A stretch of 64,000 nucleotides of DNA from Roseibacillus sp. (GTDB taxonomy: Bacteria > Verrucomicrobiota > Verrucomicrobiia > Verrucomicrobiales > Akkermansiaceae), in NCBI GenBank assembly GCA_029242545.1, contig JAQWTV010000110.1:1-64000 (forward strand). Direction: 5' to 3'. How positions within the stretch are numbered: position 1 is the stretch's first letter; the number at the start of each line of letters is the position of its first letter. This document shows positions 514 to 40,725 of this stretch, one piece after another. The position numbers were made by a program, and so were the translations under genes. The notes beneath the pieces were generated by a model that saw only the letters and a list, made by a program, of their open reading frames with translations, was not told the origin of the DNA and did not search any database.

Positions 514-1977
514 TCAGGTGAGGATTTTCTTTACGACCTGACCATGGACATCAGTAAGACGATAATCGCGCCCTTGGAATTTAAAGGTGAGTCGCTTGTG
601 GTCCACTCCGAGGAGATGCATCAGAGTGGCATTCAGGTCGTGGACATGCACGGGGTCCTGAGTTACATTGTAGCAGTAATCATCGGTCGCACCATGGACA
701 TGACCGCCCCTCACACCCGCCCCTGCCAGCATCTGAGTAAAACAGCCGGGATGGTGGTCACGGCCAGCAGCGTTACCGGGTTTCTGCGCGTAGGTGGTTC
801 GCCCAAACTCTCCACCCCATACAACAAGAGTATCTTTTAGGAGGCCTCTCTGTTTAAGATCCTTGATCAACCCGGCAACTGGCTGTTCGGTATCCCGACA
901 CTGGCGGGAGAGGGTCTCTTTTAACTTATCATGCTGATCCCATCCCATGTGGAAAAGCTGAATGAAGCGAACGTCTCGCTCGGCCAGACGGCGGGCTAAC
1001 AGGCAATTCCTCGCAAAACTCCCCTGTTTTCCCACGTTGGGTCCATAGAGCTTCAACACGTGTTCCGGCTCTTTCGAGATGTCCGCTAATTCTGGAACAC
1101 TTGCCTGCATGCGAAAAGCCATCTCATACTGAGCGATCCGTGATTCAATAGCAGGATCCCCAATGAACGCATGCCGCTTCTGATTGAGTCTCTGGAGATC
1201 ATCAAGAGTATCCCTTCGGATTCCGCGATCGATACCCGGAGGGTTCTCGAGGAAATATACCGGGTCCCCGGTATTGCGCAGCTTCACCCCGGAGTGCTCG
1301 GCGGGCAGGAACCCGGAATTCCACAATCGGCTATAGAGGGGCTGAGCTCCTCCAGAGGTCGACCGAGAGGTGAGAACAACATATGCGGGAAGGTCCCTGT
1401 TCAAAGCGCCGAGCCCATAAGAAACCCAGGACCCAATACTGGGTCGCCCGGCTAGCTGGAACCCGGTCTGGAAAAAGGTGATGGCGGGATCATGGTTGAT
1501 AGCCTCGGTTTTCATGGAGCGAATGATACACAGGTCATCCGCTACATCGCCCCAATGCGGGAGCAACTCGCTCAATTCCAGACCCGATTGTCCATGAGCG
1601 GAGAACTTGAATGGACTGGGCAGAACCGGCAGTTCCTTCTGACCCGATGTCATGGTGGTGATTCTCTGTTCTCCCCGCACCGATGGGGGCAATTCCTTAC
1701 CTCTCTCTTTTTCCAGTCCTGGCTTAGGATCAAGCAGGTCCATCTGGGAAGGCCCGCCTGACATGAAGAGAGAGATCACCCGCCGGACCTTGGCATTTTC
1801 CGGTGGTATTGTGGCAGCCCTTCCTTCCTTATCAAAAAGGAGGGAACCGAGGGCCAACGCGCCGAACCCATGCCCGGAGTTCTGCAGGAAGGAGCGTCGC
1901 CCGAGAAGCCTTAAACTCTCGCCTAACTCTCCCACCTCTGTCCCACTCAGGTCTCTATTTCCACTACTCTCCTTCAT
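514..1977 (-). CDS. Tat-exported DUF1501 family protein (pair 1)
   Basis: DUF1501 (PF07394) proteins are exported PVC proteins distantly related to the alkaline phosphatase/sulfatase fold; their reaction is unknown. The 487-aa product starts with a long n-region, then a twin-arginine motif GRRSFL at about residues 26-31 and a hydrophobic GFGALALGSLLF segment, so Tat export to the periplasm is expected. Family motifs are visible: FMSGGPSQMDLLDPKP near residue 71, WGGEFGRT near 385, then GRDHHPG, and the terminal RDYRLTDVHG. The start codon overlaps the stop of the upstream PSD1 gene by ATGA, which indicates translational coupling and a common function. The length is typical of the family. Family assignment is secure; substrate and catalytic activity cannot be read from the sequence. 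Confidence 0.93.
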   Translation of the reverse strand: MKESSGNRDLSGTEVGELGESLRLLGRRSFLQNSGHGFGALALGSLLFDKEGRAATIPPENAKVRRVISLFMSGGPSQMDLLDPKPGLEKERGKELPPSVRGEQRITTMTSGQKELPVLPSPFKFSAHGQSGLELSELLPHWGDVADDLCIIRSMKTEAINHDPAITFFQTGFQLAGRPSIGSWVSYGLGALNRDLPAYVVLTSRSTSGGAQPLYSRLWNSGFLPAEHSGVKLRNTGDPVYFLENPPGIDRGIRRDTLDDLQRLNQKRHAFIGDPAIESRIAQYEMAFRMQASVPELADISKEPEHVLKLYGPNVGKQGSFARNCLLARRLAERDVRFIQLFHMGWDQHDKLKETLSRQCRDTEQPVAGLIKDLKQRGLLKDTLVVWGGEFGRTTYAQKPGNAAGRDHHPGCFTQMLAGAGVRGGHVHGATDDYCYNVTQDPVHVHDLNATLMHLLGVDHKRLTFKFQGRDYRLTDVHGQVVKKILT

Positions 1978-4241
1978 CTGTTAATCACTTCATCAAGGTT
2001 CAGGATGACATTCGCCACCGTTGTCAGGGCCGCCATCTCCGGCTTGGAAAGGTAAGCCCCGACCTTAGATTCTCCCTGCCCCAGTAAATCCTCGGCAGCC
2101 TTGCCATCCCTGCGATAGCGCTCCACCCGCCGTTCATATCCCTTCACCAGAATCTCCAGCTCCTCCTTCTCAGCCACCCGGGAAGTGGCACAGCGAAACC
2201 CCCATGCGATTCTCTCCCCCGGCGTCCCTCCCTTAGTCATCATGCGCTCCGCAAATTTCTTCGCAGCCTCGACATAGGTCACCTCATTCAAGAGGGCGAG
2301 GGCCTGCAAAGGAGTATTGGTCAAGGTTCTCTTCACCGAACACATCTCCCGACTGGGCATGTCAAAGAGAAGCATACTGGGCGGGGCCACTGTCCTCCGA
2401 ATGCGAGAGTAAAGACTACGCCGATAGAGCTTCTCCCCATGATCCTGCTCGAAGGTTCCTCGTTTTTCTACTTCCAACCAGAGTCCAGCCGGCTGATACA
2501 CCCACCAACTCGGACCTCCGACCCGCTCTACCAGGAGACCTGAAATAAAGAGAGCCTGGTCACGCAACATCTCAGCCTGCAACCTTGTTCTCGGCCCCCG
2601 ACTCAGCAAGCGGTTCTCCGGATCACGCTGGAGCCTTTCTTCATCAATTATAGAACTTTGGCGATAGGACCGGCTCATGACTATTGCTCTGATGAGCCCT
2701 TTGACGTCCCAGCCAGACTCCACAAAGTCCACTGCAATCCAATCAAGGAGTTGAGGGTGACTCGGCCAGTCACTTTGACGTCCCAGATTTTCGGAAGTTT
2801 TGACGATACCAGTCCCAAAGAACTGCTCCCAGATCCGGTTCACAAAGACCCGGGATGTCAACGGGTGCTCTCCATCAACCAGCCACCTCGCCAGATCGAG
2901 ACGAGTCAGGCTCTCTCCCTCCGGGACCGGAGAGAACGCCTCCGGCAGCCCAGGATCTACTTCCTCACCCTTGTCATCATACTGCCCCCTCTTGAGGATA
3001 AACGCCTTCCGATCCACTTCATCGCGCATCACCATGACATGCGGATGAGCTGCTTCCAGATCCTTTACCCTGCCACTCCGGGCCTTCGCGTCCGGGATCT
3101 CCGTTTCAAGCTTCTTCACCGCTGCTTCAAAATCGCTCCTCCGATAACGATGCCGAGGTTCGGCACTGCCCCTTAGATTATTGATAAACCCTTTTTCATT
3201 CAGCCCATCGAACATCGCAAAAAGCTGATAGAACTCCTTCTGGCTGATGGGGTCATATTTGTGGTCATGGCAGCGAGCACAACTCAGCGTCAACCCAAGG
3301 AACACCGACCCCATGGTTTCCACCCGATCCATGACGTATTCCGTGCGCCACTCCTCTTCGATTGCTCCCCCCTCGGTCTGGATTCGATGGTTCCGGTTGA
3401 ATCCGGTGGCCACGATCTGGTCATCGCTGGCATCTGGCATGAGATCTCCCGCCAGCTGCCAAGTCACAAACTGGTCGTAGGGCTGGTTGGCGTTAAAGGA
3501 TTCAATAATCCAGTTCCGCCACGGCCACTGAGCATTCTCGAGATCATTATCATAGCCGTGGCTGTCCCCGTACCGCGCACCATCCAACCACCAGGTTGCC
3601 ATGCGCTCCCCGTAACGAGGAGAACCCAGCAGACGATCCACAACCCTGCCATACGCTTCCTGCGACTGGTCAGCGATAAAGGCATCTATCTCCTCGATAC
3701 TGGGAGGAAGGCCCGTTAGATCGATCGACACGCGCCGGATAAGCGCCTCCTTCGCGGCTTCCTCCTGCAGTTCGAATCCAGCCTGGAAAAGCGTCTCCCC
3801 TACAAAGGCATCGATGACCTGCGCCGTCCCGCCCTTCAGACCCGGAAGTGCTCTCTTGACCGGGGACCGGAAGGCCCAGTGGCGCTCGTATTGAGCCCCC
3901 TCACTGATCCACCGCTCGATTATCTCCTTCTCGGCATCAGTCAATGCCGTTCCCTCCCCTGGCGGGGGCATGACCTCATCCTCATCCTTTGAAAAAATCC
4001 GATGGACCAGCTCACTCTGATCCGGATCTCCCGGAACGACCGCACGCAGCCCATCACGCTCCATGTATGCTGCCTCTGGGTCATCGAGTCGCAAGTCCGC
4101 CTTTTGTTGCGAAGCGTCCGGTCCGTGGCAGGCAAGGCACTTTGCAGTCAGAATCGGCAGAACCTCTCTATTGTATTCTACCTTCCCTTCCGCGGTCAGC
4201 AAACCGCCGAGAAAGATGACCACACATGAAAAAAGCCTCAT
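1974..4241 (-). CDS. PSD1-type cytochrome protein: PSCyt1, DUF1549 and DUF1553 (pair 1)
   Basis: This 755-aa protein has a short signal peptide and a PSCyt1-type heme-binding motif CLACHG at residues 35-40. DUF1549 follows at roughly 140-345 and DUF1553 at roughly 440-715. A second CxxCH, in SCARCHDHKYDP near residue 320, lies inside DUF1549, so two covalent hemes are possible. The family is common in Planctomycetes and Verrucomicrobia and is thought to act outside the cytoplasm, often near polysaccharide-degradation genes; its reaction is unknown. The gene is the first of a two-gene unit: its stop codon overlaps the DUF1501 start by four bases. At 755 aa it lies at the short end for the family, with no extra lectin-like domain between PSCyt1 and DUF1549. 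Confidence 0.93.
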   Translation of the reverse strand: MRLFSCVVIFLGGLLTAEGKVEYNREVLPILTAKCLACHGPDASQQKADLRLDDPEAAYMERDGLRAVVPGDPDQSELVHRIFSKDEDEVMPPPGEGTALTDAEKEIIERWISEGAQYERHWAFRSPVKRALPGLKGGTAQVIDAFVGETLFQAGFELQEEAAKEALIRRVSIDLTGLPPSIEEIDAFIADQSQEAYGRVVDRLLGSPRYGERMATWWLDGARYGDSHGYDNDLENAQWPWRNWIIESFNANQPYDQFVTWQLAGDLMPDASDDQIVATGFNRNHRIQTEGGAIEEEWRTEYVMDRVETMGSVFLGLTLSCARCHDHKYDPISQKEFYQLFAMFDGLNEKGFINNLRGSAEPRHRYRRSDFEAAVKKLETEIPDAKARSGRVKDLEAAHPHVMVMRDEVDRKAFILKRGQYDDKGEEVDPGLPEAFSPVPEGESLTRLDLARWLVDGEHPLTSRVFVNRIWEQFFGTGIVKTSENLGRQSDWPSHPQLLDWIAVDFVESGWDVKGLIRAIVMSRSYRQSSIIDEERLQRDPENRLLSRGPRTRLQAEMLRDQALFISGLLVERVGGPSWWVYQPAGLWLEVEKRGTFEQDHGEKLYRRSLYSRIRRTVAPPSMLLFDMPSREMCSVKRTLTNTPLQALALLNEVTYVEAAKKFAERMMTKGGTPGERIAWGFRCATSRVAEKEELEILVKGYERRVERYRRDGKAAEDLLGQGESKVGAYLSKPEMAALTTVANVILNLDEVINR

Positions 4242-9465: not shown

Positions 9466-11160
9466 CTACTCGAACTTCGCCTCATCCAGATCGACACGGT
9501 AGACCACTCCCTTGGAGTATCCGACCGCATAGAGCTCACCGGCAGGATCTCTCCCAAAGGAAACAATCCGGTCCGGAGCCGTTCCAATCTGTCGGATAAC
9601 CTTCAACTTCCGGTCCCTCTGGGTGATACCCCAGACCTTTTTACTCTGATAGTCCGCACAGATGTAGACTCCATGAAAGCTCGACTGCGGATCAGTGCGC
9701 ATCACGTAGCCGCCAGTGACCGAGACCCCGTGCTTACGGAGGAAAGCCACAACCGGGGGAGTATACTCGGCACTCTCAGTTCGATACTGCGTCGAGAATA
9801 ACGAAAAACCCTCCTGAATATTCCACCCGTGGTTTTCCCCGGACCGCACGATGCACACCTCCTCAAACCGGTTCTGCCCCACGTCGCCAACCCAGAGATC
9901 TCCGTTGGCAGGGTCGAAGCTGAAGCGCCACGGCTGACGCAGTCCATAGGCAAAGATCTCCGGACGTCTCTCCTTTGAATCCCCAGTCACAAAGGGATTG
10001 TCACCGGGAATCCCATACGCCCGGCCTTCTTCCTCCCGGTCCACATCAATACGAAGGAGGCTCCCCTCAAAACGGCTCAGGTCCTGGGCCTTGCCTTCTG
10101 GGTCCTCCTGCGGTCCCCCATCTCCCATCCCGATGTAGAGGAAGCCATCCGGTCCGAATTCCAGACCGCCTCCGTGATGAAAGAGAGTATCGATATTCCA
10201 CCGCAGGATACTCCGGGTGGGATTTCCTGAATCTTTCCGGCGATCCGCACTGGCCACTCGCTCCACCACCGCCATACCCCGTTGCTGCCCGGTCATGGTT
10301 TCATGCATCATGAAGTAGCGCCCATTTTCCGCGAATCCGGGATGCAGAGCCACCCCCAGAAGGCCCTCGTCATTAGCCACGTAGATCTCGTCGAGGATAT
10401 TCACAAAGGGTGAGATCACCTCTTCCCCGTCCACCCTCTCCAGCAGGGAAATGGTCCCCTTGCTTTTCTCGGCAATCAGATAGCCACCCTGCACCGTCGG
10501 ATGCCCCCCGAACCACACCGGCTTATGAAATTTCTCCTTCATCCCGAATACGGGCTCGAAGGCAACCTGCTGGCTAAGGACCGGAATTTCCAGTGGCGTA
10601 CCCGCCTCCTGAACCACCTTTGTCTCCGGTTGCCTGAGGCTTTCAAGATAGGCAATCAGGTCCCGGAATTCCGCAGGACTAAGCTGGGAGTGCAGACCGG
10701 GAGGCATCAGTGAGACTGCTCCCGTCTCCTCCTTCACAACCTCGGAACGGGCGATCCGAAGATCCACTCCTCCAACCTGCCCAAGGACCAGGACCTCGTC
10801 TGCCCGGCTCCGCAGGATTCCCTGGAAACGCTCGCCCTTCCGATTCTCCAAGATCGTCGTGGCATAGCCCGTCATGATCGAGGACGAGGGATCGAGAATG
10901 GACTGAGCCAAATCCGCGCGGGCGAACTTATCCCCCGCGGCATACAAATCAGGTCCTATCCCACTCGCCGTCCCATCAACGGAGTGACACTGGCTGCACG
11001 CAGTGCGTTGATCTGTGAATATGAGCTTCCCGCCCTCAACGCTTCCTCCCGTCATGGCGACCTTCAGAAACTCGCCATCAGGGAGGGGCTCCGCTCCTTC
11101 CATGAGAGCGGGAACAAGAAGAGATACCGCTGTGTAGGCAAACCAGCGCGGATGGGTCAT
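9466..11160 (-). CDS. Heme c-fused PQQ-type sugar dehydrogenase (GSDH family)
   Basis: After a signal peptide, residues about 35-175 form a class I cytochrome c-like domain with CSQCH at 55-59 and a Met-containing LMPPG segment near 152 that may supply the axial ligand. Residues about 200-560 match the glucose/sorbosone dehydrogenase six-bladed propeller (PF07995), with motifs GLLGVALHPGFAENG, HHGGGLEFGPDGFLYIGMGDGG, AYGLRQPWRFSFDP and WGITQ. Such proteins oxidise sugars in the periplasm and pass electrons to c-type heme; here donor and acceptor domains are in one chain. The gene is divergent from another heme/propeller dehydrogenase at 11291 with 130 bases between. PQQ binding is inferred from the family. 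Confidence 0.9.
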   Translation of the reverse strand: MTHPRWFAYTAVSLLVPALMEGAEPLPDGEFLKVAMTGGSVEGGKLIFTDQRTACSQCHSVDGTASGIGPDLYAAGDKFARADLAQSILDPSSSIMTGYATTILENRKGERFQGILRSRADEVLVLGQVGGVDLRIARSEVVKEETGAVSLMPPGLHSQLSPAEFRDLIAYLESLRQPETKVVQEAGTPLEIPVLSQQVAFEPVFGMKEKFHKPVWFGGHPTVQGGYLIAEKSKGTISLLERVDGEEVISPFVNILDEIYVANDEGLLGVALHPGFAENGRYFMMHETMTGQQRGMAVVERVASADRRKDSGNPTRSILRWNIDTLFHHGGGLEFGPDGFLYIGMGDGGPQEDPEGKAQDLSRFEGSLLRIDVDREEEGRAYGIPGDNPFVTGDSKERRPEIFAYGLRQPWRFSFDPANGDLWVGDVGQNRFEEVCIVRSGENHGWNIQEGFSLFSTQYRTESAEYTPPVVAFLRKHGVSVTGGYVMRTDPQSSFHGVYICADYQSKKVWGITQRDRKLKVIRQIGTAPDRIVSFGRDPAGELYAVGYSKGVVYRVDLDEAKFE

Positions 11161-11290: not shown

Positions 11291-13741
11291 ATGTCCCGTC
11301 ACCTCCTTCTCATCCTGCTGGCCGTCACTGGCCTTCATGCCGAAAACCCCTTCCGTGTCCCGGAAGGATTTGAGATCACACAATTTGCCGGCGATGACCT
11401 CACCCATGACACCTGGGCCATGACCATCTCGGAAGACGGGAAGGTGGCTGTCTCCGGGCCAGGGTATATCAAGGTCCTTCTCGATACGGACAAGGACGGC
11501 GTAGCCGACCAGGCCGAGGTCGTCTTCAACAAAGCCCGTAATCCCCACGGCCTCCTCTGGAACGGAAACGACCTCCTCAGCGTTCAGCCTCAGGGGATTT
11601 TCCTGCATCGCACCCAGCCGGGTCAGACCCTCCCGGGCGGCGACCCCGAACTTTTCTACAAGCTTCCCGGAGGAGGAGGAGAACACGGCCCCCATGGAAT
11701 CCGACGCGGTCCTGACGGATGGTTTTACGTGGCCTGCGGAAATAACACCAATATCAGTAAAGGGAACATCACCACCGCCACCTCCCCCATCACCGACCCC
11801 TCGCAGGGAACGATCCTCCGCATCTCTCCGGATGGAAAACAGAGTGAGGTCATTGCCCACGGATTCCGCAACCAGTACGACCTCGCCTTCAACCAGCACG
11901 GCCACCTCTTCACCTTCGACTCCGACGGAGAGCGGGATCACCAACTCCCATGGTATTCCTACTGTCGGGTCTTTCACATCCGGGTCGGGGGACACCACGG
12001 CTGGCTTCTCCCCGGCCACCAACGCTCCTTCAACCGGCCTCCCTATTTCTTTGATTCCGCCGCCCGGCTCAACGAGATCGACCGTGGATCTCCCACCGGG
12101 GTGGAAGTCTACCGCCACACCCAGTTTCCCAAGCACTATCAGGACGGCCTCTTTTTCGCCTGCTGGACCTACGGACGGGTCTACTTCAGCCCGCTCATCC
12201 CGAGGGGAGACTCCTATCAGAGCCATGAGGACGAGACCTTCCTCGAGCCTATCGGCAACCTCGGCTTTGCCCCCTCCGACCTCGCGGTTCACCCCCTCAC
12301 CGGAGACCTCTTCGTCTCGGTAGGAGGCCGGGGAACCAGGGGGGCCGTTTATCGGGTCTCCTATCCGGAAGGTCGAAAAGCGGCCAAGCCCGTTCCCTTC
12401 TATGAGACCTCGGAGGACTGGTCTGTCCACAAAGACCTCATCACGCCCCCCCCCGTGCTCTCCCCGACTGAGGCTCTTGCCCTCTTCGAAAGGACCAACG
12501 AACCCTCCACCCGTATTACCGCTATGCGTCACCTCATGCTCGCGATGGGAGACATCAGCACCAATGAGGCACGCCGCCGGATCGATGCTGGCTACACTGC
12601 GAATAAGCCGGACGCTCTCTCAGAAGAACTTCGCCGGAAAGCCCTCTCTCTGCTGACCGTGGCGTTTGATCCGCAAGATCCAGGCCATCCCCAGCAGTAT
12701 GAGATCGCCCGCCTGCTTGCCATGCTCAAGGCAGATACAAGCGCCGCCATGGAAGGTCTCGCCTCAGCCCTCTCTCCTTCCTCTCACCCGACCCACGATG
12801 CCCACTATCTGTTCTGTCTCTCCCAAATGCCCGGGCCAAGAGAGATCGTTCGCGAAAAAATCGCAAAAGGCTTCCTCGGAATCGACCACAAGCTCGAAGA
12901 GCGCGATCTCCTCACCGACCGGAACTGGAGTGTCAACCTGCGCGACGCCCTGAAGACCCAACTTGAATTCGATCCCGGAACAGCCGACCGGATGGCTCAA
13001 TCCAAGAAAATATCCCCCGCCAGCGTGCACCTTCTTTCGCTGCTACCGGAAAAAGACCACAGATCCATGGCCCAAGCGATGGCCTCTGGCGTGCGGGGGT
13101 GGAACAGGGAAGCCCTTGGCTTTGTGGAGAAGCACCTGCCTCCCTCAGCGATCCCACCTCTTCTGACTACCCTACGTGGCGTCTGGAAAAGCGAACTCCA
13201 GCTCAGGCCCGATCTCGTTGGGTTTCTCTCTCGTCATGGCAGTGAGGAAGATCGCAGAGCTGCCTCAGAATTCCAACAGCCACCGACCAGCAAGGTCGAC
13301 CTCACTCCGTTCGCCGAAAAGATGAAGATCGTCGACTGGGAGAAGGGCGACAGCGCTCGGGGACAGGCAACCTACACTCGCTACAGCTGCGCCACCTGCC
13401 ATTCAGGCAATCGACGACTCGGACCTTCCCTTGGCAACATCACCAAGCGCTTCAACCGGGAGGACCTTTTCCGGCACATCAATGAGCCGAACCTTTCTCT
13501 TTCTGACCTCTACAAGGCCACGCAGATCACCACCGCTGATGGCGTCTACATTGGAATGAAGGTTTACAGCTCTGAGGCTCAGACCATTCTCGAAACAGGG
13601 TCAAATGAAACCATCCGTTTCTCCCGACACGACATTCTCAGCGAACGATCTCCAAACCGATCACCGATGCCGGCTCGACTGCTGTTGGGAGCGAGCACCC
13701 AAGAGTTGGCAGACCTCTACGCCTACCTGAAGACACTGTGA
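11291..13741 (+). CDS. PVC-type CxxCH membrane-bound dehydrogenase family protein
   Basis: The 816-aa product has a signal peptide, then the FRVPEGFEITQFAGDD opening and a six-bladed propeller related to sugar dehydrogenases (about 20-370), with HGPHGIRRGPDGWFYVACGN and HGFRNQYDLAFN motifs. A helical, probably HEAT-like middle region follows (about 390-680). A C-terminal cytochrome c domain has CATCH near 699-703 followed by RRLGPSLGNI. This architecture is the PVC-type heme-binding dehydrogenase seen in large numbers in planctomycetes and verrucomicrobia; substrates are mostly unknown. It is divergent from the GSDH gene, in which the heme domain is N-terminal. Electron transfer to a periplasmic or membrane carrier is likely but inferred. 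Confidence 0.9.
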   Translation: MSRHLLLILLAVTGLHAENPFRVPEGFEITQFAGDDLTHDTWAMTISEDGKVAVSGPGYIKVLLDTDKDGVADQAEVVFNKARNPHGLLWNGNDLLSVQPQGIFLHRTQPGQTLPGGDPELFYKLPGGGGEHGPHGIRRGPDGWFYVACGNNTNISKGNITTATSPITDPSQGTILRISPDGKQSEVIAHGFRNQYDLAFNQHGHLFTFDSDGERDHQLPWYSYCRVFHIRVGGHHGWLLPGHQRSFNRPPYFFDSAARLNEIDRGSPTGVEVYRHTQFPKHYQDGLFFACWTYGRVYFSPLIPRGDSYQSHEDETFLEPIGNLGFAPSDLAVHPLTGDLFVSVGGRGTRGAVYRVSYPEGRKAAKPVPFYETSEDWSVHKDLITPPPVLSPTEALALFERTNEPSTRITAMRHLMLAMGDISTNEARRRIDAGYTANKPDALSEELRRKALSLLTVAFDPQDPGHPQQYEIARLLAMLKADTSAAMEGLASALSPSSHPTHDAHYLFCLSQMPGPREIVREKIAKGFLGIDHKLEERDLLTDRNWSVNLRDALKTQLEFDPGTADRMAQSKKISPASVHLLSLLPEKDHRSMAQAMASGVRGWNREALGFVEKHLPPSAIPPLLTTLRGVWKSELQLRPDLVGFLSRHGSEEDRRAASEFQQPPTSKVDLTPFAEKMKIVDWEKGDSARGQATYTRYSCATCHSGNRRLGPSLGNITKRFNREDLFRHINEPNLSLSDLYKATQITTADGVYIGMKVYSSEAQTILETGSNETIRFSRHDILSERSPNRSPMPARLLLGASTQELADLYAYLKTL

Positions 13742-19948: not shown

Positions 19949-21349
19949 TCACGCGAGGATGTCCCGCACCACCCGTCCGTGGACATCGGTCAACCGGAAA
20001 TCCCGCCCTGCGTAACTGTAGGTGAGATTCTTGTGATCAATCCCCAACTGGTGAAGGATGGTGGCGTGGAGATCGTGGAAATGAACCCGGTTTTCCGTGG
20101 CGTAGTAGCCATACTCGTCTGTAGCGCCGTATTGGATACCTGGTTTGATCCCGCCTCCAGCCAGAAACATGGTGTTGGCATGGGGATTATGATCCCGTCC
20201 GTCACGCCCCTGAGCTACCGGGGTCCGGCCAAATTCGCCCCCCCATAAGACCAGCGTTTCATCGAGCAAACCCCGCTGCTTGAGATCGGTGATCAGGCCG
20301 GCCACCGGCTTGTCCATTTCACCAGCGAGGCGCGCGTGTTCCTTGCGCAGGTTCCCGTGTGAGTCCCAATAACGGTGTGTGATCTGGACAAAGCGCACTC
20401 CGGCCTCGCTGAAACGACGCGCCATGAGGCACTGTTCCCCGAACTTCTTCGTGTTGTCCTGGTCCAGTCCGTAGAGATTCTTGACCGCCTCCGGCTCTCC
20501 GGAGACATCCTGCACCCTGGGAGTTTCCATCTGCATCCGGAAGGCCAGTTCGTAGGAGGCGATCCGCGCTTCCAGTTCGGCATCGCCCGCGCTCCTCGCA
20601 AGGTGATCTCCATTCATGGCCTTGAGAAGGTCCAGTTCCCGGCGTTGCAGGTCCCGGTTCTTGAGTGGACTGGCGATAAAGGGAACGGTCATGCCCCGTC
20701 CCTTACCTCCGATCCTCGTCCCTTGGTAGTGGGCAGGCAGGAAGGCTGAGGACCACGCATTCGATCCCCCGTGACTTCCGCTCGGGTCAATCGTGATGAA
20801 TCCGGGCAGGTTCTGGTTCTCTGTCCCGAGGCCGTAGTTGACCCAAGACCCCATGGCGGGGCGGGTAAAAGTATCCGAGCCCGTGTGCAACTCCAGCAGG
20901 GCACCTCCATGCCTCGAATTGGAACCGTAGATCGACTTCACAATACAGAGGTCGTCCACGATGGAAGACAGGCGGGGAAGAATCTCACTCACCTCCGCTC
21001 CCGTCTGTCCATGCTTGGAGAACTTCCACGGCGAAGCCAGCAGGTTGCCTGTCTTTGCGGAAACAATACGCGGCTTCTCGAAGGGAAGAGGCTTATTGTC
21101 GTCCTTGGTCAATTGCGGCTTATGATCGAAAAGGTCCACCTGCGACGGCCCTCCATGCATGAAGACAAAAATGACTCGCTTGGCGCGCGCCAGTGATGGA
21201 GCCGGCTTGGGACTAAGCGCCGAGGCAGAAAGGGCCTCCTGCCCCATGAGACCCTGCAGAGCGAGCGCCCCGAAGCCAGCCGAGGACGACCCCAGCATCT
21301 CCCGTCGCGTGAGTGGTCGGGACTGACGGTTCTGGCAGAGATCGCTCAT
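19949..21349 (-). CDS. Tat-exported DUF1501 family protein (pair 2)
   Basis: The 466-aa protein has the Tat motif TRREML followed by GFGALALQGLM. It shows the DUF1501 hallmarks FMHGGPSQVDLFDHKP, WGGEFGRTPVAQGRDGRDHNP and the terminal RDFRLTDVHGRVV. It is predicted to be periplasmic and of unknown activity. It is the last gene of a same-strand unit and lies 68 bases downstream of PSD1 gene 2. Compared with pair 1 the GRDHNP motif is closer to the family consensus. Confidence 0.93.
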   Translation of the reverse strand: MSDLCQNRQSRPLTRREMLGSSSAGFGALALQGLMGQEALSASALSPKPAPSLARAKRVIFVFMHGGPSQVDLFDHKPQLTKDDNKPLPFEKPRIVSAKTGNLLASPWKFSKHGQTGAEVSEILPRLSSIVDDLCIVKSIYGSNSRHGGALLELHTGSDTFTRPAMGSWVNYGLGTENQNLPGFITIDPSGSHGGSNAWSSAFLPAHYQGTRIGGKGRGMTVPFIASPLKNRDLQRRELDLLKAMNGDHLARSAGDAELEARIASYELAFRMQMETPRVQDVSGEPEAVKNLYGLDQDNTKKFGEQCLMARRFSEAGVRFVQITHRYWDSHGNLRKEHARLAGEMDKPVAGLITDLKQRGLLDETLVLWGGEFGRTPVAQGRDGRDHNPHANTMFLAGGGIKPGIQYGATDEYGYYATENRVHFHDLHATILHQLGIDHKNLTYSYAGRDFRLTDVHGRVVRDILA

Positions 21350-21417
21350 GACAGGGACAAGGAGAGTATGATGATAAACGATAAAAATGTCAAAGACACG
21401 AAGAGATCGGCTCTAAT

Positions 21418-23812: not shown

Positions 23813-24991
23813 CTACTTCTGACTCCCATTCTTATCAACAACCGGACGTTTCAACCCATGCTTGTCATAGAGCCTCTGCCAGTAATCGAACCAGTACTTA
23901 TCGTAATAATCGTAGGCCGCGTTATCGATATGTTCCGGACTCACCACCACCGGAGCCGTTTTCGGATCATAGCCTTTCAGATGGTCCTTCCCCGCCCGCT
24001 TTCGCGGTGACACGAAGCGCCACTTGGGATTGCCCATGACTTCCTCACAAAGGGCAGCCAGCCCCTCGTCATAGGATTTGAGCTGCTCCCGACGGTGGAT
24101 GTGGTTGTGGTCATGATCCATCGTGCGATTGGTGTCATACCAGGTCTGAAATCCCTCGGCCCAGTATTCCGCACGGTTCGACGCTGCGTAACACCGCTTC
24201 TTACCGCCAAAGACAATAAGGACCTTGTCCTGTCCGTTCACCTTGACTGCGGAATGGGTCGGCTTTCCATTGACGAGAATATCCCCGCCATCCAGACACC
24301 GCTTCAGTAATTCCGGCGACTCCCCCGGAAACCATTCGCGCAGGGCTCCAAACAACTCTGCTCGATCGTCTCCCTTGATCCTGCGGAACCGCTGGGCTGC
24401 CCGCCCATCATGCCAGATCCCTTTCTCAAGCGCTCCCTTGTAGGCGACAGTCAGTTTCTCCTGCTGCTCCTTGCTGAAACCGGCGCCGTGGACCACATGC
24501 CCAAATTCATGGATCAGGATACTCTCTATCTGCATTCCACCCTCGAACTCCAGGACATCCTCTTCCGCAAAAAACACCGTGGGGCGTCCGGCCTTCCAGG
24601 TGAGAAATCCCCTGCTTCGCCAGTTATAGAAGTCGAGTTCCTGCCCCGTCTTGTCGGTCGTGAACTGAGGCACTTCCGAGGTCACCTCGTTATGCGCGAC
24701 AAGAATACACAACACCTTGCGCTCCCTTACCCGTTGCGCAACCTCCGGGATGATGCTCTTCATCATCATCTCGAACTGATAGGCCGCCTCGAGATGTGCC
24801 GCATCGCTCACCTTCTCCGAGGTCGCGATCAGGACATCCTGCACCCAGGTCCCCTTCTTGTAAAAGGCAGGGTCGAGTTCGTATTCTTCCAACTGCGCAG
24901 CAGCAAGAGGCTTGACCTCATGAGCAAACAGCGAGCCAAAGGACCCTGTCAGGACTAAAACGAGGAGACCTCTGGTGATCAGCGGAAGCAT
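23813..24991 (-). CDS. Exported zincin metallopeptidase-like protein (HEFGH)
   Basis: The 392-aa product has a signal peptide (LLVLVLTGSFGSLFA). A zinc-binding HEFGHVVH lies near residue 160 and a plausible downstream Glu ligand in RAEYWAEGFQTWYD near 275, the arrangement of gluzincins. The family is not one I can name with certainty; it is reminiscent of the anthrax lethal-factor-like zincin fold. It lies only 9 bases downstream of the PQQ-like propeller gene and 58 bases upstream of the preferred PSD1 start, so it belongs to the same operon. A C-terminal Tyr/Lys-rich stretch (AAYDYYDKYWFDYWQRLYDK) is notable. Peptidase activity is predicted from the motif alone. Confidence 0.75.
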   Translation of the reverse strand: MLPLITRGLLVLVLTGSFGSLFAHEVKPLAAAQLEEYELDPAFYKKGTWVQDVLIATSEKVSDAAHLEAAYQFEMMMKSIIPEVAQRVRERKVLCILVAHNEVTSEVPQFTTDKTGQELDFYNWRSRGFLTWKAGRPTVFFAEEDVLEFEGGMQIESILIHEFGHVVHGAGFSKEQQEKLTVAYKGALEKGIWHDGRAAQRFRRIKGDDRAELFGALREWFPGESPELLKRCLDGGDILVNGKPTHSAVKVNGQDKVLIVFGGKKRCYAASNRAEYWAEGFQTWYDTNRTMDHDHNHIHRREQLKSYDEGLAALCEEVMGNPKWRFVSPRKRAGKDHLKGYDPKTAPVVVSPEHIDNAAYDYYDKYWFDYWQRLYDKHGLKRPVVDKNGSQK

Positions 24992-25000: not shown

Positions 25001-26263
25001 CTACTTGTTACCGAAGCACATCAGGTGGCTGTCATTGCGCAGCAGGATCCGGTCTCCCACCGGCACCGGAGAAGCCACGATCCGCTTCCCAAAGTCACGC
25101 TCGAAAAGCACCTTCAACCCCTCGTTCAACTCCGCTACCATGAGCTTTCCGTCCTCTCGTCCGGCATAAATCTTACCGTCTGCGATCGTCGGAGAGGAAT
25201 AGTAACTCTGCGCGCCCCGAGGCAACTTCGCTTCCCATACCGTCTCTCCCGTCTCCGGATCGAGGCAATGGACCTGTCCCCGGTCCCCGAGGATATACAC
25301 TTTGCCATCATGCACCGCCGGGGTGGGGACAAAGCAACCCTTGTCGTCGAGGCGCTCCCACACCCGGTGGGTCTTGGTGACATCTCCCTTTCCTCCCAAT
25401 TTGACTCCGGCCAGACACTTGCCCCGACCGTAGGGCACCACCACCATGTCGCCTACCACCACCGAGGAGGAAACCACCACCCAGTTATTACGCTTCTGCG
25501 GGTTAAACCCTGCACACTCCGAAATTAATTTTCCCGTTGCAGCCTCGTGGGTCGTCACCCGCTCGGCACCCCAGACCACCAGCACCTGACGACCGTCTTC
25601 CTCGAGGACGTGCGGAGTGGCATAACTATGATCTCCCTCCACCGGGGTCTCATAAGTTCGCTCCACCTTCCAGGCCTCTTCACCTGTAGCTTTATCAAAA
25701 CCCACCATAAATCCTTTGCGGTCATTCATCACTGCCATCACCACATGCTCCCGGGTAATCACCGGCGACGTACCAATGTCCCAGTAGAGCGTATCCCGTC
25801 CGTAGCGCTCCTGCAGGTTGTGCTTCCAGAGCACCTTCCCCTTCATGTCGAGCGCTCCCAGATTACCGCTCTTGAAGTAGGCGAAGACATGCGCCCCATC
25901 CGTCACCGCCGACGGATTACTACTCGATCCATTCCGATGCTTCCCCTTGCGCATCTTGCCCAAGGTGGCTTCCCACGCCTTCTTACCCTTCCAGTCGAAC
26001 GCCAGAACTGCATCTTCCCCCTCAATCGCAGAGGTCAGAATGATAAGTTCGTCCCACACCACCGGAGTCGAGCACCCTCGCCCGGGCAGGTCCGCCTGCC
26101 AGACGAGATGATCCTCATCCAGTTTGGCTGGATAGCTGCCCTTGGCTGTGGAGCCGGCATCTGCCCCTCCGCGCCACGAGGGCCAGCGCAGTTGTTCCGC
26201 CTGCAGGACAGCCGCCGACAATACAGCGGCACCGAAAATCAATGGAAGAAATCTCGTATTCAT
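25001..26263 (-). CDS. Exported PQQ-like beta-propeller repeat protein (1)
   Basis: After a signal peptide (PLIFGAAVLSAAVLQA) the product consists of repeated eight-bladed-propeller units with Trp-docking-type phrases such as VLAFDWKGKKAWEA, LGALDMKGKVLWKH, FDKATGEEAWKV and LDPETGETVWEA. The N-terminal RWPSWRGGADAGS is a variant of the WPxWRGPxxxG opening common in PVC homologues. These proteins resemble quinoprotein dehydrogenases and BamB but usually lack proven PQQ. I chose ATG 26263 over the ORF-track start at 26320 because GGAG sits 7 bases upstream and the signal peptide then starts at once. It stands second in the minus-strand operon. Confidence 0.87.
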   Translation of the reverse strand: MNTRFLPLIFGAAVLSAAVLQAEQLRWPSWRGGADAGSTAKGSYPAKLDEDHLVWQADLPGRGCSTPVVWDELIILTSAIEGEDAVLAFDWKGKKAWEATLGKMRKGKHRNGSSSNPSAVTDGAHVFAYFKSGNLGALDMKGKVLWKHNLQERYGRDTLYWDIGTSPVITREHVVMAVMNDRKGFMVGFDKATGEEAWKVERTYETPVEGDHSYATPHVLEEDGRQVLVVWGAERVTTHEAATGKLISECAGFNPQKRNNWVVVSSSVVVGDMVVVPYGRGKCLAGVKLGGKGDVTKTHRVWERLDDKGCFVPTPAVHDGKVYILGDRGQVHCLDPETGETVWEAKLPRGAQSYYSSPTIADGKIYAGREDGKLMVAELNEGLKVLFERDFGKRIVASPVPVGDRILLRNDSHLMCFGNK

Positions 26264-26349
26264 CATGGCACTCCAGATTGCTGCCATTACAGGATATTCC
26301 GCCCTGGGAGCAAGATCCAAGGAAGTCGCGTTCAGGTGACCTCGCTGCT

Positions 26350-30551: not shown

Positions 30552-31892
30552 TCAGACAATCAGCCCGTCAAGCGTTCCCGTACTATCAGCAAAGGAATCC
30601 GCCTTCACTCCCATCTGCTGCTGGATAGTCACAAACACGTTTGAGAACGGGGTCTTACTGTCGCATTTTAGATATTGGCCGTGCCGGTAGCCCATCTTGT
30701 TTCCTCCGGCAAGAATCAGCGGATAGTTGGTGTTGTTGTGGGTCTTGCTGTTGCTGCTGCCGTAAAGGATGCAGGTATTGTCCAGCACGGACCCATCTCC
30801 CTCTTCAAACTCACTGAGTCGTTTCATCAGATAAGCGAGGCATTCAGCCTGATAACGGTCCCACTTTCCCTTGGCTTCGGCTCCCTTCCCTTTGCCCGCC
30901 CCATGAGCCAACCCGTGGGCGTCCTTGTTGAAACCCAGGAGCGACGGGAACTTGTTCGCGATGGAGATTGCCCCGTGCATGCTCGCCAACTGGTAGGTCA
31001 CGAAGCGGGTCGAGTCGGTCTGAAATGCGAGGGCAATCAGGTCCAGCATGGTATGAATGAGCTTCCCCGGAGTCTCGTTGTCCGCATCAAGGCTAAGCCC
31101 CTCCGCATTGACCTTCGGACGGGGGACATTCAGCCATTGCGCGGAGCGCTCCACGTCCTGCTCAATCTCACGAACTGAAGTAAGATACTGGTCCAGTTTA
31201 CCCTGGTCCGTTCTGCCCAGTTTGCGATGCAGGGTCCTGGCTTCATCAAGCAGCAGATCAAGGTGGCTTCCGGTCCGGGTGAGTCCCTTTCTCTGGGCCT
31301 CGATGGAGTCGCCATTCAACCCAAAGAGACGTTCAAAGACAACGGCAGGCCGGTTCAGGGAAGGAATCGGCTGACCGCTACTGGAGTAGGAGAGCGTATT
31401 CGCCCTGGTAGGCATGCCCACCCCTCCATCCGAGGAGAGCACCAAGCTGCTGAAGCGAGTAGTCGCACCCAGTCTATGCCTTTGCGCCATGAACTGATCC
31501 AAGGAAATGGAGTTCTTCAGACCCGTTGCAGAAAGGCTCAACTCCTCCCCGGTCAGGAAGGTATCACCACTGTCATGACCTCCGATTCTGCGGACCTTGG
31601 GATGGGAGAGCCCTCCAAGAACCGTGACCTGATCACGGAACGGCTCCAGCACCTCAAGGGACTTGTTAAAGGTAAAGTCCTGGCCCGATCCGTTCGGAAA
31701 CCAGTTCCACTCCCCGAACTCGCCCTCCTGCTTGGGCAGGCTCACTCCGTAGGGGAAATAAATGGAACAGAACCTTCTTGGAGGTACCTTGGAGCTGGGA
31801 CCCGCTAGAGACTCCATCCAAGGCAGCGCCATGGAGATCCCGGCGGCCTTGAGCATCGTCCTGCGGTTCATGTAGTGGGCGCTCTTACTCAT
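30552..31892 (-). CDS. Tat-exported DUF1552 family protein
   Basis: From ATG 31892 (GGAG 6-7 bases upstream) the protein starts MSKSAHYMNRRTMLKAAGIS, a Tat signal. The DUF1552 body (PF07586) shows RRFCSIYFPYGV, LSHPKVRRIGGHDSGDTFLTG and the late LDNTCILYGSSNSKTHNN and ILAGGNKMGYRHG. The ORF track start at 32000 overlaps the upstream gene and is less likely. DUF1552 is regularly encoded next to DUF1592-type cytochromes in PVC and Myxococcota genomes and is distantly related to DUF1501; function unknown. Here the partner cytochrome gene ends 43 bases upstream, paralleling the DUF1501/PSD1 arrangement. Confidence 0.92.
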   Translation of the reverse strand: MSKSAHYMNRRTMLKAAGISMALPWMESLAGPSSKVPPRRFCSIYFPYGVSLPKQEGEFGEWNWFPNGSGQDFTFNKSLEVLEPFRDQVTVLGGLSHPKVRRIGGHDSGDTFLTGEELSLSATGLKNSISLDQFMAQRHRLGATTRFSSLVLSSDGGVGMPTRANTLSYSSSGQPIPSLNRPAVVFERLFGLNGDSIEAQRKGLTRTGSHLDLLLDEARTLHRKLGRTDQGKLDQYLTSVREIEQDVERSAQWLNVPRPKVNAEGLSLDADNETPGKLIHTMLDLIALAFQTDSTRFVTYQLASMHGAISIANKFPSLLGFNKDAHGLAHGAGKGKGAEAKGKWDRYQAECLAYLMKRLSEFEEGDGSVLDNTCILYGSSNSKTHNNTNYPLILAGGNKMGYRHGQYLKCDSKTPFSNVFVTIQQQMGVKADSFADSTGTLDGLIV

Positions 31893-31935
31893 CAGTTTCT
31901 CCCGTTCCTTGTCACTATAGCAGTTACCCCCGCCC

Positions 31936-34464
31936 CTATCGCGATAAAAAAGGCTCACTGCTGGCAATGCGAGCCATGAGGGAGGGCAACCGGTAGCCAT
32001 CCCGGGCGAACTTCCGGCTCAATTCCTCGATCAAAGGCGCATCCTCCAGCATGGCACTTCGTCCCATGGCATAGACATACAACTTGGTCACAAGGGCCCG
32101 GGCAAATTGTGCGCGCCTCTCCGTAAGCATGTGGTCCTGCAGATCTGCCAGTCCCGCAACCTGGTGATTCCCCGGCAGGACAGTCGTGGTCGAGACCGCT
32201 TTCCGGCCCCGGGCGGTCTTATCTCTTGGCAATCCGATCGCATCGAACCGCTCCAGGGCGATACCCCATGGGTCGATGCTGCGGTGGCAGTCCGCACAGG
32301 CTTCCTTCTTCCGGTGGAGCTCCATCTGCTCCCGGACAGGAAGCTTCTCAAAACCGCCGATACTTTCCTCAAGGTTTGGAACATCGGGCGGAGGAGGATT
32401 GGGAGGATCATTCAGGAGATGCTCCCTGATCCAGACCGCGCGCTTGATGGGATGGGAGTCTACTCCATCAGATCCGGCGAGATGCACGGAAGCATGGCCC
32501 AGTAAGCCCCCCGGGCGACTTGTTCCCTCAAGAGGCACCCTCTCGAAGGCCTGAGATCGAGGTCCCTCCAACCCGTAATGTTTTGCCAGGCGGGCATTGA
32601 GCATGGTGAAGTCCGCATCCAGGAACTGCAGGGCCGAGGTATTGCTCCGCAGGATTTCCAGGAAGAAGGATTGCGTTTCCCGGACCATCTCGGGCTTGAG
32701 GGAATTATCGAAGTTTCGGTAATACTGTGGGTTGATGGCCACCCGGTCTACTCCATCAAGATCAAGCCATTGCCTGCTGAATTGCTCCGCGAAACGATCC
32801 GCCTTCTCGTCGGCGAGCAAACGCCTGAACTCCCGACGTAATATCCCGGGGTCCAGCAACTCCCCGGAATCAGCCAGGCCGGAAAGAGTCTCATCCGGAA
32901 GAGAGCTCCACAGGAAATAAGAGAGGCGGGTGGCGAGCTCATGGGCATTCAACCTCCGCCGCTTCTCGGAAGCTGAGGGCTCAGTGAGGTAAAGAAAATG
33001 AGATGAGGCCAGAACGGCTGACAGGGTCTCCTTGAGGGCCTCCACCGGATGGCCTGATTCCTTCCGCATCAACTCGTGGTGCCTGATCCACTTCGCCAGT
33101 TCCATATCCTGCACTGGCCGTCGCCAGGCTCGCCGCAGAAAGCGCCCCAGAATAACCCGGAGAGCCTTTGGATCATCCACGTCTTCCCCTTCTCGTATGA
33201 TCCTGCGGTGCAGGGGTGGCGGCCAGGAGGCGTAGTCGTCCCGGACGATCTCCACTGACTCAATGATAATACGCGGAAAAGCCGGGTCCTCAGGGAAGAA
33301 CTTGACCTTCTTCTTTCTCACCTTCCCCTTCTTGTCCTTCTCCTCAATGACCTCCGTGACCTCCTTGGGACGGGGTTCCCCATCATCGAGAACATTCTGG
33401 AGCGTGATGACCCCATTGAGCTTGCTGCCGGGAACATCGGCCTCCGGCAGGGGAAGGAACTCGGCTCGCAGCGGGATGTCGTAATATTCCGATGTAGGCG
33501 AGGAAACCTCGATTTCGCCGGCATCATCCATGATGTTCAGGGTCAGACCCGAGACGAAATACCCATACCGGGCAAAGAGGATCGGGGCAGGCTGTCCCGG
33601 TTTCCGGTCGGTCGAGGCCTTCACCCGCATGGTGAATTGTCCCCCGCGCGGTGGATCTTTGAACGAACCGTAATAGAAGTTCACCCGGCCCAGGCGCTCG
33701 GAAGAGTTTCCAGCATAGCGGCGGCGATTAGGCCCCCTGATTCCTTGCTTGTTTCTCTCTACCGGGGAAACACTGGGCTCCAGCGGTTCTCCTTTAACTA
33801 GGATAAGGTCAAGAGCCTTCCGGGCCGTCTTGAGATAATTCTCAACCTGCAGGGCAGTCATACCCAGGGCCGCCCCGTTATTTTTGAATCCCTCCGGAGA
33901 CCGCGCATCGGAAGGAAGGCTTTCACCGTAATTCATCTCCAAGCCCAGTATGTCGGTCATGGTATGTTGATACTCGGGCCGGTTCAACCGACGTATCACC
34001 ACCTGTCGTCCGGTATTTTTGCGGGCCTCAGCCGCCCGACCCAACTCCTTCGTCAACCAGGCGACGAGCACTCGGCGTTCCTCGGCAGGGAGAGGAAGTT
34101 CTTTCTCCGGGGGCATCTCTCCCCGGTTGAGCATATCAAGGGCGTCGTGCCAAGTCTCGCCGGCGTTACCGTTTACCATGTCCGGCTCAAGCGAATCGAG
34201 CCTGAGATCTCCCTTCTGCTTTTCAGGGCCATGGCAGGAAAAACAATGCTTTTGCAAGAGAGGCTTCACGTCTTTCTCGAAGCCAATACTCCCAGCTGCC
34301 GCCGATGGCAGAGCTTCCCCTTTCCTGATCAACCCGTCCTCATTCAGGATCAAACCCAGCTTATTCGAGACAGGCTCGGCCTCCAGATCAGTTGGCGCAG
34401 CCGGACCGGCCAGGACCAACAAGCCTGACCCCAGAAGACAGGCGGAGATTATGATGGGTTTCAT
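31936..34464 (-). CDS. DUF1592-type cytochrome protein: PSCyt1, DUF1587, DUF1595, DUF1592, DUF1588, DUF1585
   Basis: The protein (start preferred at ATG 34464, [14 protein letters not shown] signal peptide) carries PSCyt1 with CFSCHG starting at residue 74. DUF1587 follows ([19 protein letters not shown]), then a beta-rich carbohydrate-binding-like insertion, DUF1595/DUF1592 ([20 protein letters not shown]), DUF1588 with a second heme motif [13 protein letters not shown] near residue 720, and DUF1585 at the end. A Lys-rich stretch ([19 protein letters not shown]) inside the beta region is unusual. It is partnered by the DUF1552 gene immediately downstream. An extracytoplasmic redox function is inferred; no member has a firmly assigned substrate that I can name. 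Confidence 0.92.
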
Positions 34465-37932: not shown

Positions 37933-37963
37933 AAAAAAAGAAGGCCTCCTTTCGGAGGCCTTC
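37933..37963 (-). terminator. Rho-independent terminator after the FKBP gene
   Basis: A perfect 10-bp stem, GAAGGCCTCC / GGAGGCCTTC (37940-37949 with 37954-37963), has a 4-base loop. On the minus strand it is followed by seven T residues (the A tract at 37933-37939). It lies 23 bases after the FKBP stop codon and is a textbook intrinsic terminator for that gene. The hairpin may also slow transcription of the convergent DUF885 gene, but no T tract follows it on the plus strand. Confidence 0.9.
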
Positions 37964-37985
37964 GGAAATATGTTCTTCGAGGAAA

Positions 37986-38690: not shown

Positions 38691-38782
38691 GGCTGGGAGA
38701 TTTGGCCCGGAAATGGCAAAGTCAACTCATTCCTACCCACAGAGCATTGAAACGAGCGGGGAATCATTGATACTCAGATCAG

Positions 38783-39313
38783 ATGAAGATCCTGATTGTC
38801 TCCTGCAGCCTGCATCCCGAAAGCCGTAGCCGTCGTCTTGCGGGCGAGCTGGAGTCTATCTGGCGAGCAACTGGTCGCGCTGAAATCTCCACCCTCGACC
38901 TGCGGGATCTCGAGTTACCGGCCTGTGATGGGACCTCAGCCTATGGACACCCTGACACAGTGAAATTGCAGGAGATCTTCACAGATACGGACGCCGTCGT
39001 CCTAGCCGTCCCGATCTATAACTACGACATTAATGCGGCAGCTAAGAACGCCATCGAGCTAGCTGGCCGCCAGCTTACAGGTAAAGTCGCAGGGTTTCTT
39101 TGCTCGGCTGGTGGAGAGCGAAGTTACATGTCCGTGATGGCAGTGGCTAACAGCCTCATGCTGGACTTCCGAACCGTGATTCTTCCTCGCTTCGTCTACG
39201 CAGGAAAGGGCGATGTTTCTGACTCAGGTGAACTCAGCACCGAAATCCGTGAAAGAGTTGCCCAGTTCGGGGAAGAGTTCCTTACCCTCGCACAGGCATT
39301 GCAATCTGCCTAG
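38783..39313 (+). CDS. NAD(P)H-dependent FMN reductase family protein
   Basis: The 176-aa flavodoxin-like protein has the phosphate-binding loop SCSLHPESRSRRLA, the PIYNYDINAAAKNAIE motif that contacts the flavin ring, and GFLCSAGGERSYMS. It matches the NADPH-dependent FMN reductase family (PF03358), which reduces flavins, quinones or chromate. It is cytoplasmic. A DUF1501 gene begins 17 bases after its stop, so the two are probably co-transcribed. Start at ATG 38783 has no visible Shine-Dalgarno sequence. Confidence 0.88.
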   Translation: MKILIVSCSLHPESRSRRLAGELESIWRATGRAEISTLDLRDLELPACDGTSAYGHPDTVKLQEIFTDTDAVVLAVPIYNYDINAAAKNAIELAGRQLTGKVAGFLCSAGGERSYMSVMAVANSLMLDFRTVILPRFVYAGKGDVSDSGELSTEIRERVAQFGEEFLTLAQALQSA

Positions 39314-39330
39314 AGTCTCTTTCTATACCC

Positions 39331-40725
39331 ATGAGTGACGCCCCCTTAGCCATCGCACGCCGGGAAATGCTCGCCCGGTCCTCACTGGGATTCGGGTCTC
39401 TGGCATGCAGCGCCCTACTCGATAAGGCCAGGGCCGGGGGAGTGATCGAGAGGCATCTTTCGCCAAAGGTGCGTAATATCATATTTCTCTTCATGGAGGG
39501 TGGAGTATCGCAGGTCGACTCCTTCGACTATAAACCAATACTGGAGAAGCATCACGGCAAGGACCCCCGCAAGGAGATTGGACAGCTTGAAAGAACGCAG
39601 TTCGAGGCTATCGGCAAGGTGTTCAAATCACCATGGAATTTCCAGAGACGAGGTCAAACTGGGGCCTGGATCAGCGACCTATTTCCTAGAGTGGCCGAAA
39701 TGGCGGATGAGCTCTGCATCGTCAAATCGATGACCTCGCGCTTCCCCGAGCACACCAGTGCTAACTTCTTCCTCCATAGTGGAACCGGTTTACAAGGACG
39801 GCCCAGCATGGGCGCGTGGGCCAGTTACGGGCTGGGAAGCGATAACGACAATCTACCCGGCTATATTGTTCTCAATGGGGGCCAGATTCCCTCCGGAGGC
39901 TTGGATTGCTTCAGTAATGGCTTTCTTCCGGCCACTGCCCGGGGAAGCCTCCTCAACGCTATAGGAGCCCCTCTTGCCAACGTCACTCCAAACGAGCGTG
40001 GCGCCCAGTCACAAGCCTTGAAGAGGCGGCTAGTCGGCCATCTCAATCAGCAGACTCCTGCGAATTCTCGGGAACTGGAAGCTGCCATCGCGAACTATGA
40101 ACTCGCGGCCCGGATGCAACTTGCCGTCCCGGAAGTGATGTCGCTGGAAGGAGAATCCCAATCAATCCGGCGGCTCTATGGTCTCGATGCCGAATACCCG
40201 CACACCCGGACCTACGCCCGTCAATGCCTGATCGCCCGGAGACTCGTGGAGCGCGGAGTCCGCTTTGTTGAGCTCACTATTCCCATGGTCAACGGGTTTC
40301 AACGCTGGGACGCTCACGGCGATATTGCTAGCAACCATGGTGACAACGCCCGGGCGGTAGACCAGCCCATCGCTGGTCTACTCAAGGATTTACGGAGCCG
40401 GGGAATGCTGGATGAGACCCTCGTCCTCTGGTCCGGCGAATTTGGAAGGACGCCTTTCGCGCAAGGAGGGTCTGGCCGGGATCACAACGAACACGGCTTC
40501 AGCCTCTGGATGGCTGGAGGAGGCATAAGACCGGGCATCTCCTATGGAGAAACGGATCAATGGGGCTATAAAGCAGTCTCGGGACGGTTGGAGGTGCATG
40601 ATCTCCACGCCACTCTCCTCCACCTCCTTGGAGTAGATCACAAAGCATTCACTCACCGGTTTGGAGGACGGGACATCCGTCTCACCGATGTTCACGGCCG
40701 TGTGGTGAAAGAGCTCCTAGCCTAG
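39331..40725 (+). CDS. Tat-exported DUF1501 family protein without an adjacent PSD1 partner
   Basis: The 464-aa protein has a Tat motif ARREMLARSS followed by GFGSLACSALL. DUF1501 motifs are FMEGGVSQVDSFDYKP (Val in place of the usual Pro), WSGEFGRTPFAQGGSGRDHNEHG and RDIRLTDVHGRVV. Unlike the other DUF1501 gene pairs in the window there is no cytochrome-type gene next to it; its upstream neighbour is an FMN reductase 17 bases away. It is the only one of the four Tat modules on the plus strand. It may share a cytochrome encoded elsewhere. Confidence 0.92.
   Translation: MSDAPLAIARREMLARSSLGFGSLACSALLDKARAGGVIERHLSPKVRNIIFLFMEGGVSQVDSFDYKPILEKHHGKDPRKEIGQLERTQFEAIGKVFKSPWNFQRRGQTGAWISDLFPRVAEMADELCIVKSMTSRFPEHTSANFFLHSGTGLQGRPSMGAWASYGLGSDNDNLPGYIVLNGGQIPSGGLDCFSNGFLPATARGSLLNAIGAPLANVTPNERGAQSQALKRRLVGHLNQQTPANSRELEAAIANYELAARMQLAVPEVMSLEGESQSIRRLYGLDAEYPHTRTYARQCLIARRLVERGVRFVELTIPMVNGFQRWDAHGDIASNHGDNARAVDQPIAGLLKDLRSRGMLDETLVLWSGEFGRTPFAQGGSGRDHNEHGFSLWMAGGGIRPGISYGETDQWGYKAVSGRLEVHDLHATLLHLLGVDHKAFTHRFGGRDIRLTDVHGRVVKELLA

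Follow-up and report, generated by a model that had tools for sequence, protein, structure and literature searches.

DUF1501+PSD1 and DUF1552+DUF1592 gene pairs have, in our assessment, an even chance of being two lineages of a single periplasmic system of two components, in which a component A of sulfatase fold and a helical component B would act together, probably on glycans. The pairs were analysed in a window of 64,000 nucleotides (the whole stretch of DNA studied) from a Roseibacillus sp. contig (JAQWTV010000110.1), and its features are collected in Table 1. A first-pass annotation had described three pairs of a cytochrome-type gene and a DUF1501 or DUF1552 gene on the minus strand (514-4241, 19949-23754 and 30552-34464) and a fourth, unpaired DUF1501/DUF1552 module; the pairs were confirmed by Pfam with small start-site corrections, and the unpaired module was found at 39331-40725.

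Table 1. Features of the window, with positions counted from its first nucleotide
Feature	Positions	Strand	Length (aa)	Assignment
P0001, DUF1501 protein of pair 1	514-1977	-	487	Pfam DUF1501, E=5e-156
P0002, PSCyt1+PSCyt2+PSD1 partner of pair 1	1974-4241	-	755	Pfam
P0003, DUF1501 protein of pair 2	19949-21349	-	466	Pfam
PSCyt1+PSCyt2+PSD1 partner of pair 2	21418-23754	-		Pfam
P0005, DUF1552 (HXXSHH) protein of pair 3	30552-31892	-		Pfam, E=1.5e-75
DUF1592 partner of pair 3, PSCyt1+PSD3+PSD5+PSD4+PSCyt3+PSD2	31936-34464	-		Pfam
P0007, solitary DUF1501 protein	39331-40725	+		Pfam
Glucose/sorbosone dehydrogenase with CxxCH domain	9466-11160
DUF7133/Piru_Ver_Nterm protein	11291-13741
HEFGH-motif protein	23813-24991	-
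PQQ_2-type beta-propeller	25001-26320	-
FMN-reductase-like gene	38783-39313
TSP3-repeat (bacterial type) protein with PA14 fragment	45506-50926		1806
LTD/CotH surface protein	56945-61927		1660
3-keto-disaccharide hydrolase	61899-62720

The three DUF1501 proteins of the window scored 456-520 bits against the Pfam model (PF07394; curated cut-off 27), and P0005 scored 255 bits against DUF1552 (PF07586; curated cut-off 30). The DUF1501 and PSD1 genes overlap by 4 bp (ATGA) in pair 1 and are separated by 68 bp in pair 2; the gap between the DUF1552 and DUF1592 genes of pair 3 is ~43 bp. The best ATG of the pair 2 PSD1 gene is at 23754 in a frame open up to 23841, the likely start of the P0005 gene is at 31892 in a frame open up to 32000, and the DUF1592 frame is open up to 34488. 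At the level of sequence motifs, the DUF1501 and DUF1552 proteins of the window all have a Tat-type RR motif at the N terminus, and every partner protein of pairs 1-3 carries two CxxCH motifs, from which covalent haem c is predicted (CLACH and CARCH in P0002, which has a Sec-type leader; CFSCH and CADCH in pair 3). P0005 has the motif HGLAHG as against the HXXSHH of the family name, and its S and final H are variable in the paralogues as well. The P0007 gene is preceded by the FMN-reductase-like gene and has no adjoining PSD1 gene, the closest being 17 kb away.

Two genes lie upstream of pair 2 on its own strand, that of the HEFGH-motif protein (without Pfam or NCBIfam match, likely a metallopeptidase) and that of the beta-propeller. 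Together with pair 2 they may form one operon of four genes. WD40 propellers near DUF1501 have been described in Planctomycetes (PMC5587647). Elsewhere in the window, the glucose/sorbosone dehydrogenase and DUF7133 genes are both of the PVC-type haem/dehydrogenase kind, and the 3-keto-disaccharide hydrolase gene adjoins that of the LTD/CotH surface protein.

The host genome is a 3.99 Mb draft in 175 contigs, from a GTDB family with many small genomes among its members. It yielded 60 DUF1501, 56 PSD1, 24 DUF1552 and 23 PSD4 matches, one sub-threshold DUF1552 match being excluded from the counts. A PSD1 gene was located within 2 kb of 50 of the 60 DUF1501 genes, on the same strand in 50/50 and upstream in 48/50; the other ten DUF1501 genes, that of P0007 among them, have no partner inside 2 kb. 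Likewise, a PSD4 gene lies within 2 kb of 21 of the 24 DUF1552 genes, always on the same strand (21/21); it is upstream in 16 of these pairs and downstream in the remainder. The common order with the cytochrome gene upstream, which the first-pass annotation had noted, holds in the window and is near-fixed for DUF1501/PSD1, but not for DUF1552/PSD4. Cross-pairs (DUF1501 with PSD4, DUF1552 with PSD1) numbered 0 and 0 in the whole genome. With 84 DUF1501/DUF1552 genes in 3.99 Mb, 0.85 are expected per 40 kb, and four modules in 40 kb are a mild clustering for this genome, the P(>=4) of ~0.011 holding for one stretch fixed beforehand and being uncorrected for the choice of stretch.

Partner distances within this one genome are correlated for 27 DUF1501/PSD1 pairs (r = 0.89, P = 0.0002) and for 21 DUF1552/PSD4 pairs (r = 0.72, P = 0.0002). 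Because all pairs come from one genome, the history of the organism cannot account for these correlations, which show that each pair is duplicated and diverges as one unit; such co-diversification is also expected from linked duplication without contact between the partners. A Tat-type RR motif, counted by a loose regular expression, was found in the leaders of 29/30 DUF1501 and 18/21 DUF1552 proteins of the host genome and in those of 2/27 PSD1 and 0/23 PSD4 proteins; on this motif, the DUF1501 and DUF1552 proteins are predicted Tat substrates.

Scanning of GTDB contigs yielded 80 loci with DUF1501, in Planctomycetota, Verrucomicrobiota, Acidobacteriota, Armatimonadota and one Bacteroidota isolate, among others (taxon labels of draft genomes may mislead). 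In these loci, PSD1 lies within 500 bp of DUF1501 in 60/80, in several phyla, on the same strand in 60/60 and upstream in 58, with a median gap of 37 bp. Several of the remaining loci have PSD1 within 1.4 kb or are interrupted by a contig end. The partner distance correlation across the 80 loci is r = 0.75 (69 pairs), and no DUF1501-PSD1 gene fusion (Rosetta-stone evidence) was seen among them. The pairing is specific, conserved across phyla and beyond chance.

Structures were predicted as single chains. The DUF1501 model, built on P0003 with 92 sequences, reached a pLDDT of 92, and its top 50 Foldseek matches in the PDB (E 3e-7 to 2e-5, probability 1.00) comprised only sulfatases, LtaS-type lipoteichoic-acid synthases and a phosphonate hydrolase. 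TM-scores were modest at 0.30-0.40, and the fold match therefore does not fix the geometry of the active site. Sequence profiles likewise match sulfatases, weakly but consistently; the similarity exceeds that of 100/100 shuffles for DUF1501 and also for DUF1552. The Pfam Sulfatase model scores DUF1501 below its cut-off, and it touches one DUF1501 gene of the host (C158:26832-27140, E 5e-4); single-sequence searches for PDB relatives gave nothing meaningful. On the predicted model, DUF1501 is of the sulfatase/alkaline-phosphatase (ALP) fold; it may already have been placed in the alkaline-phosphatase-like superfamily by domain databases. Aligned with hhalign, DUF1501 and DUF1552 gave a probability of 98% over ~350 columns, with a score of 101 against <=43 in 150 block shuffles. 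By this profile comparison the two families are homologous, and the two pair types that the first-pass annotation had called unrelated-looking but alike in architecture do converge.

DUF1501 is invariant in 92/92 relatives at H147, W328, D329, H331, E372, F373, G374, R375, R385 and H387, and the counterparts of H147, H331 and H387 are invariant in 23/23 divergent DUF1501 proteins adjoining DUF1800. In DUF1552, H142, D168, H362 and H366 are invariant in 19/19 and H421 is conserved in 15/19. When 14 sulfatase masters of the host genome were compared with three DUF1501 query alignments, H147 fell on the formylglycine cysteine in 14/14, 11/14 and 9/14 masters and E372 fell on the sulfatase metal Asp in 14/14 masters in each; H331 and H387 had no stable counterparts among the sulfatase residues. 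In the DUF1501 model, a strand (135-141) is followed by a helix (147-156) that is opened by H147 and closes with TG. A strand, then the nucleophile at a helix start, then TG is the layout of sulfatases. DUF1501 has in common with the S1 formylglycine sulfatases the fold, the position of the metal Asp (E372) and the helix and TG past the nucleophile, but it has H-x8-TG in place of CxPSR, GG in place of the paired Asp past strand 1, and a dedicated partner protein. The S1 signature C/S-x-P-x-R is absent from DUF1501, which has His at the Cys position, and the Ser, Thr or formylglycine-Cys nucleophile of the ALP superfamily is replaced by the invariant His147. DUF1501 therefore lacks the canonical nucleophile, which has given way to a group of residues rich in His; the invariant His, along with D/E residues, would most likely bind a metal.

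The model of the PSD1 protein (P0002, 61 sequences; pLDDT 88.6, pTM 0.88) had no fold relative in the PDB at E<=0.001, the best being at E 1.2, and likeness to known cytochromes is confined to the PSCyt1 part; the partner is modelled as a large helical protein whose fold is unmatched in the PDB. The two CxxCH motifs that the first-pass annotation had taken to characterise the cytochrome gene are present in the window partners, but they are not a defining feature: PSD1 proteins of the host genome have two in 15/27 and one in 12/27, while DUF1592 proteins mostly have two. Lectin-like Laminin_G_3 modules are inserted in 4/21 PSD1 proteins, and Laminin_G_3, PA14 and F5/8 modules each occur in 1/14 DUF1592 proteins. 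The score of PSD1 440-600 against a PSD2 segment was reached by 0/150 shuffles; full-length homology of PSD1 and PSD4 outside PSCyt1 was unconvincing (4/150 shuffles as high).

A third pair type involves DUF1800, which is absent from the host genome and present in 31/145 genomes of the host phylum. A DUF1501 relative directly adjoins 29/30 DUF1800 loci, and the DUF1800 partner has no CxxCH motif (0/30). A segment of ~75 columns is common to DUF1800, PSD1 (about 434-556) and PSD2 (770-848), with 0/150 shuffles as high for each; the hhalign probabilities of 17-63% (26-63% for the DUF1800 link) are sub-threshold, though the scores beat all shuffles. Because haem-free DUF1800 has this segment in common with PSD1 and PSD2, haem was ruled out as the common denominator of the pairs, and, going by the shared segment, the core system therefore appears to consist of a sulfatase-fold protein and a DUF1800/PSD-type helical protein, to which haem was added.

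The pairing itself had been published before, so that the 'undescribed' of the first-pass annotation was too strong. He et al. 2017 (PMC5615132) reported that PSCyt2/PSCyt3 genes in Verrucomicrobia MAGs usually adjoin one of two uncharacterised gene families, and that PSCyt genes are abundant, more so in oxic lake layers, with a density inversely related to that of glycoside hydrolases. The cytochrome/PSD domain combinations and the arrangement of neighbours are as here, with glycan-binding modules in some copies; the main text neither gives a fold nor relates the two neighbour families by homology. The sulfatase neighbourhoods also reported there are not enriched in the host genome: 10/66 modules lie within 3 kb of a sulfatase against 10.3 expected at random placement, with 101 sulfatase-family matches in 3.99 Mb and none inside the window. 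As the modules are no nearer to sulfatases than random, the published association fails in this genome. DUF1501-DUF1800 pairs with Tat signals, proteobacterial ones included, are described in PMC5122149; like the window pairs, these operons join a Tat-exported DUF1501 to a dedicated large partner, and the three His positions are identical, but their partner lacks a haem motif. The literature surveyed on DUF1501 or DUF1553 gives no fold or active site. New here are the DUF1501-DUF1552 homology, the His at the nucleophile position, the PSD1 model without PDB match and the DUF1800-PSD segment.

That the genes adjoin by shared regulation or linked duplication alone, without joint function, would fit the DUF1501 genes with no partner inside 2 kb (10/60, P0007 included), but is very improbable in view of the partner-type specificity with zero cross-pairs, the conservation of pairing across phyla and the replacement of the partner by a segment-sharing DUF1800 in other pairs. 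A structural module linked to the cell plan with internal membranes in PVC bacteria was proposed by an earlier comparative study, and PMC4452313 and PMC4960237 cite a DUF1501 module preferentially present in compartmentalised PVC species. DUF1501 is also found on contigs of Acidobacteriota, Armatimonadota and Bacteroidota, and with DUF1800 in proteobacteria (PMC5122149), and neither the enzyme fold nor the 60 copies in a genome suit a structural role, which makes this proposal very unlikely.

Two readings concern the chemistry of component A, and each is doubtful as it stands. Component A might be a redox metalloenzyme whose H147, H331, H387 and D329/E372 hold Fe or Cu on the ALP scaffold, with electrons passing to or from the PSCyt haems, for example in an oxidative attack on glycans. 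The lack of the canonical nucleophile, the three His invariant in 92/92 relatives and in 23/23 divergent proteins, the haem-bearing partners (CxxCH motifs) of host-genome pairs, and the inverse relation to glycoside hydrolases and oxic-layer abundance of PSCyt (PMC5615132) speak for it. E372 and the RDH segment, on the other hand, are what a hydrolase would retain too, and because DUF1800, without haem motif in 30/30, is paired with DUF1501 of the same His set, haem is not essential to the common chemistry. Rather unlikely in the same degree is an ordinary ALP-superfamily ester hydrolase or transferase with phospho- or sulfo-histidine chemistry, for which the cytochrome partner would be a mere scaffold or redox-state reporter; the fold, the metal Asp position and a His that opens helix H147-156 where the nucleophile would sit agree with it, but we know of no ALP-superfamily hydrolase with a His nucleophile.

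In the preferred two-component system, component A would be DUF1501 or DUF1552, Tat-exported and built on the sulfatase/ALP fold, with an invariant His in place of the usual nucleophile (formylglycine-cysteine, Ser or Thr) that, together with two more invariant His and D/E residues, would most likely make up a metal site, filled in the cytoplasm ahead of Tat export. Component B would be PSD1 or PSD2-5, or DUF1800 in the case of other pairs, a large helical and separately exported protein with the common helical segment, which may form a physical complex with A and present the substrate to it. Because lectin-like modules are inserted in some copies, this substrate would probably be a glycan or glycan-linked ester. 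In host-genome pairs, component B would also bear c-type haem coupling the reaction to electron transfer. The dozens of paralogous pairs per genome would each be specialised for other substrates, like the SusC/SusD pairs of Bacteroidota, a functional analogy only, with many co-diversified paralogous pairs per genome, no homology, other proteins and another cell location. More tentatively, one ancient system may span DUF1501/PSD1, DUF1552/DUF1592 and DUF1501/DUF1800, in which the nucleophile of a sulfatase-fold protein gave way to a metal-binding or covalent-catalytic His, which acts on glycans, and whose new-fold partner gained haem in PVC-type pairs for a redox reaction.

DUF1501 and DUF1552 are among the most duplicated genes of the host (84 in 4 Mb). 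Planctomycetota and Verrucomicrobiota are phyla in which the family is widespread. With three pair types unified, a fold and three named invariant His, its function is open to direct experiment. If the proposed system is true, the known machinery of carbon degradation in the sea and in soil would gain an enzyme of sulfatase fold whose active site is new, together with a new fold of helical type.
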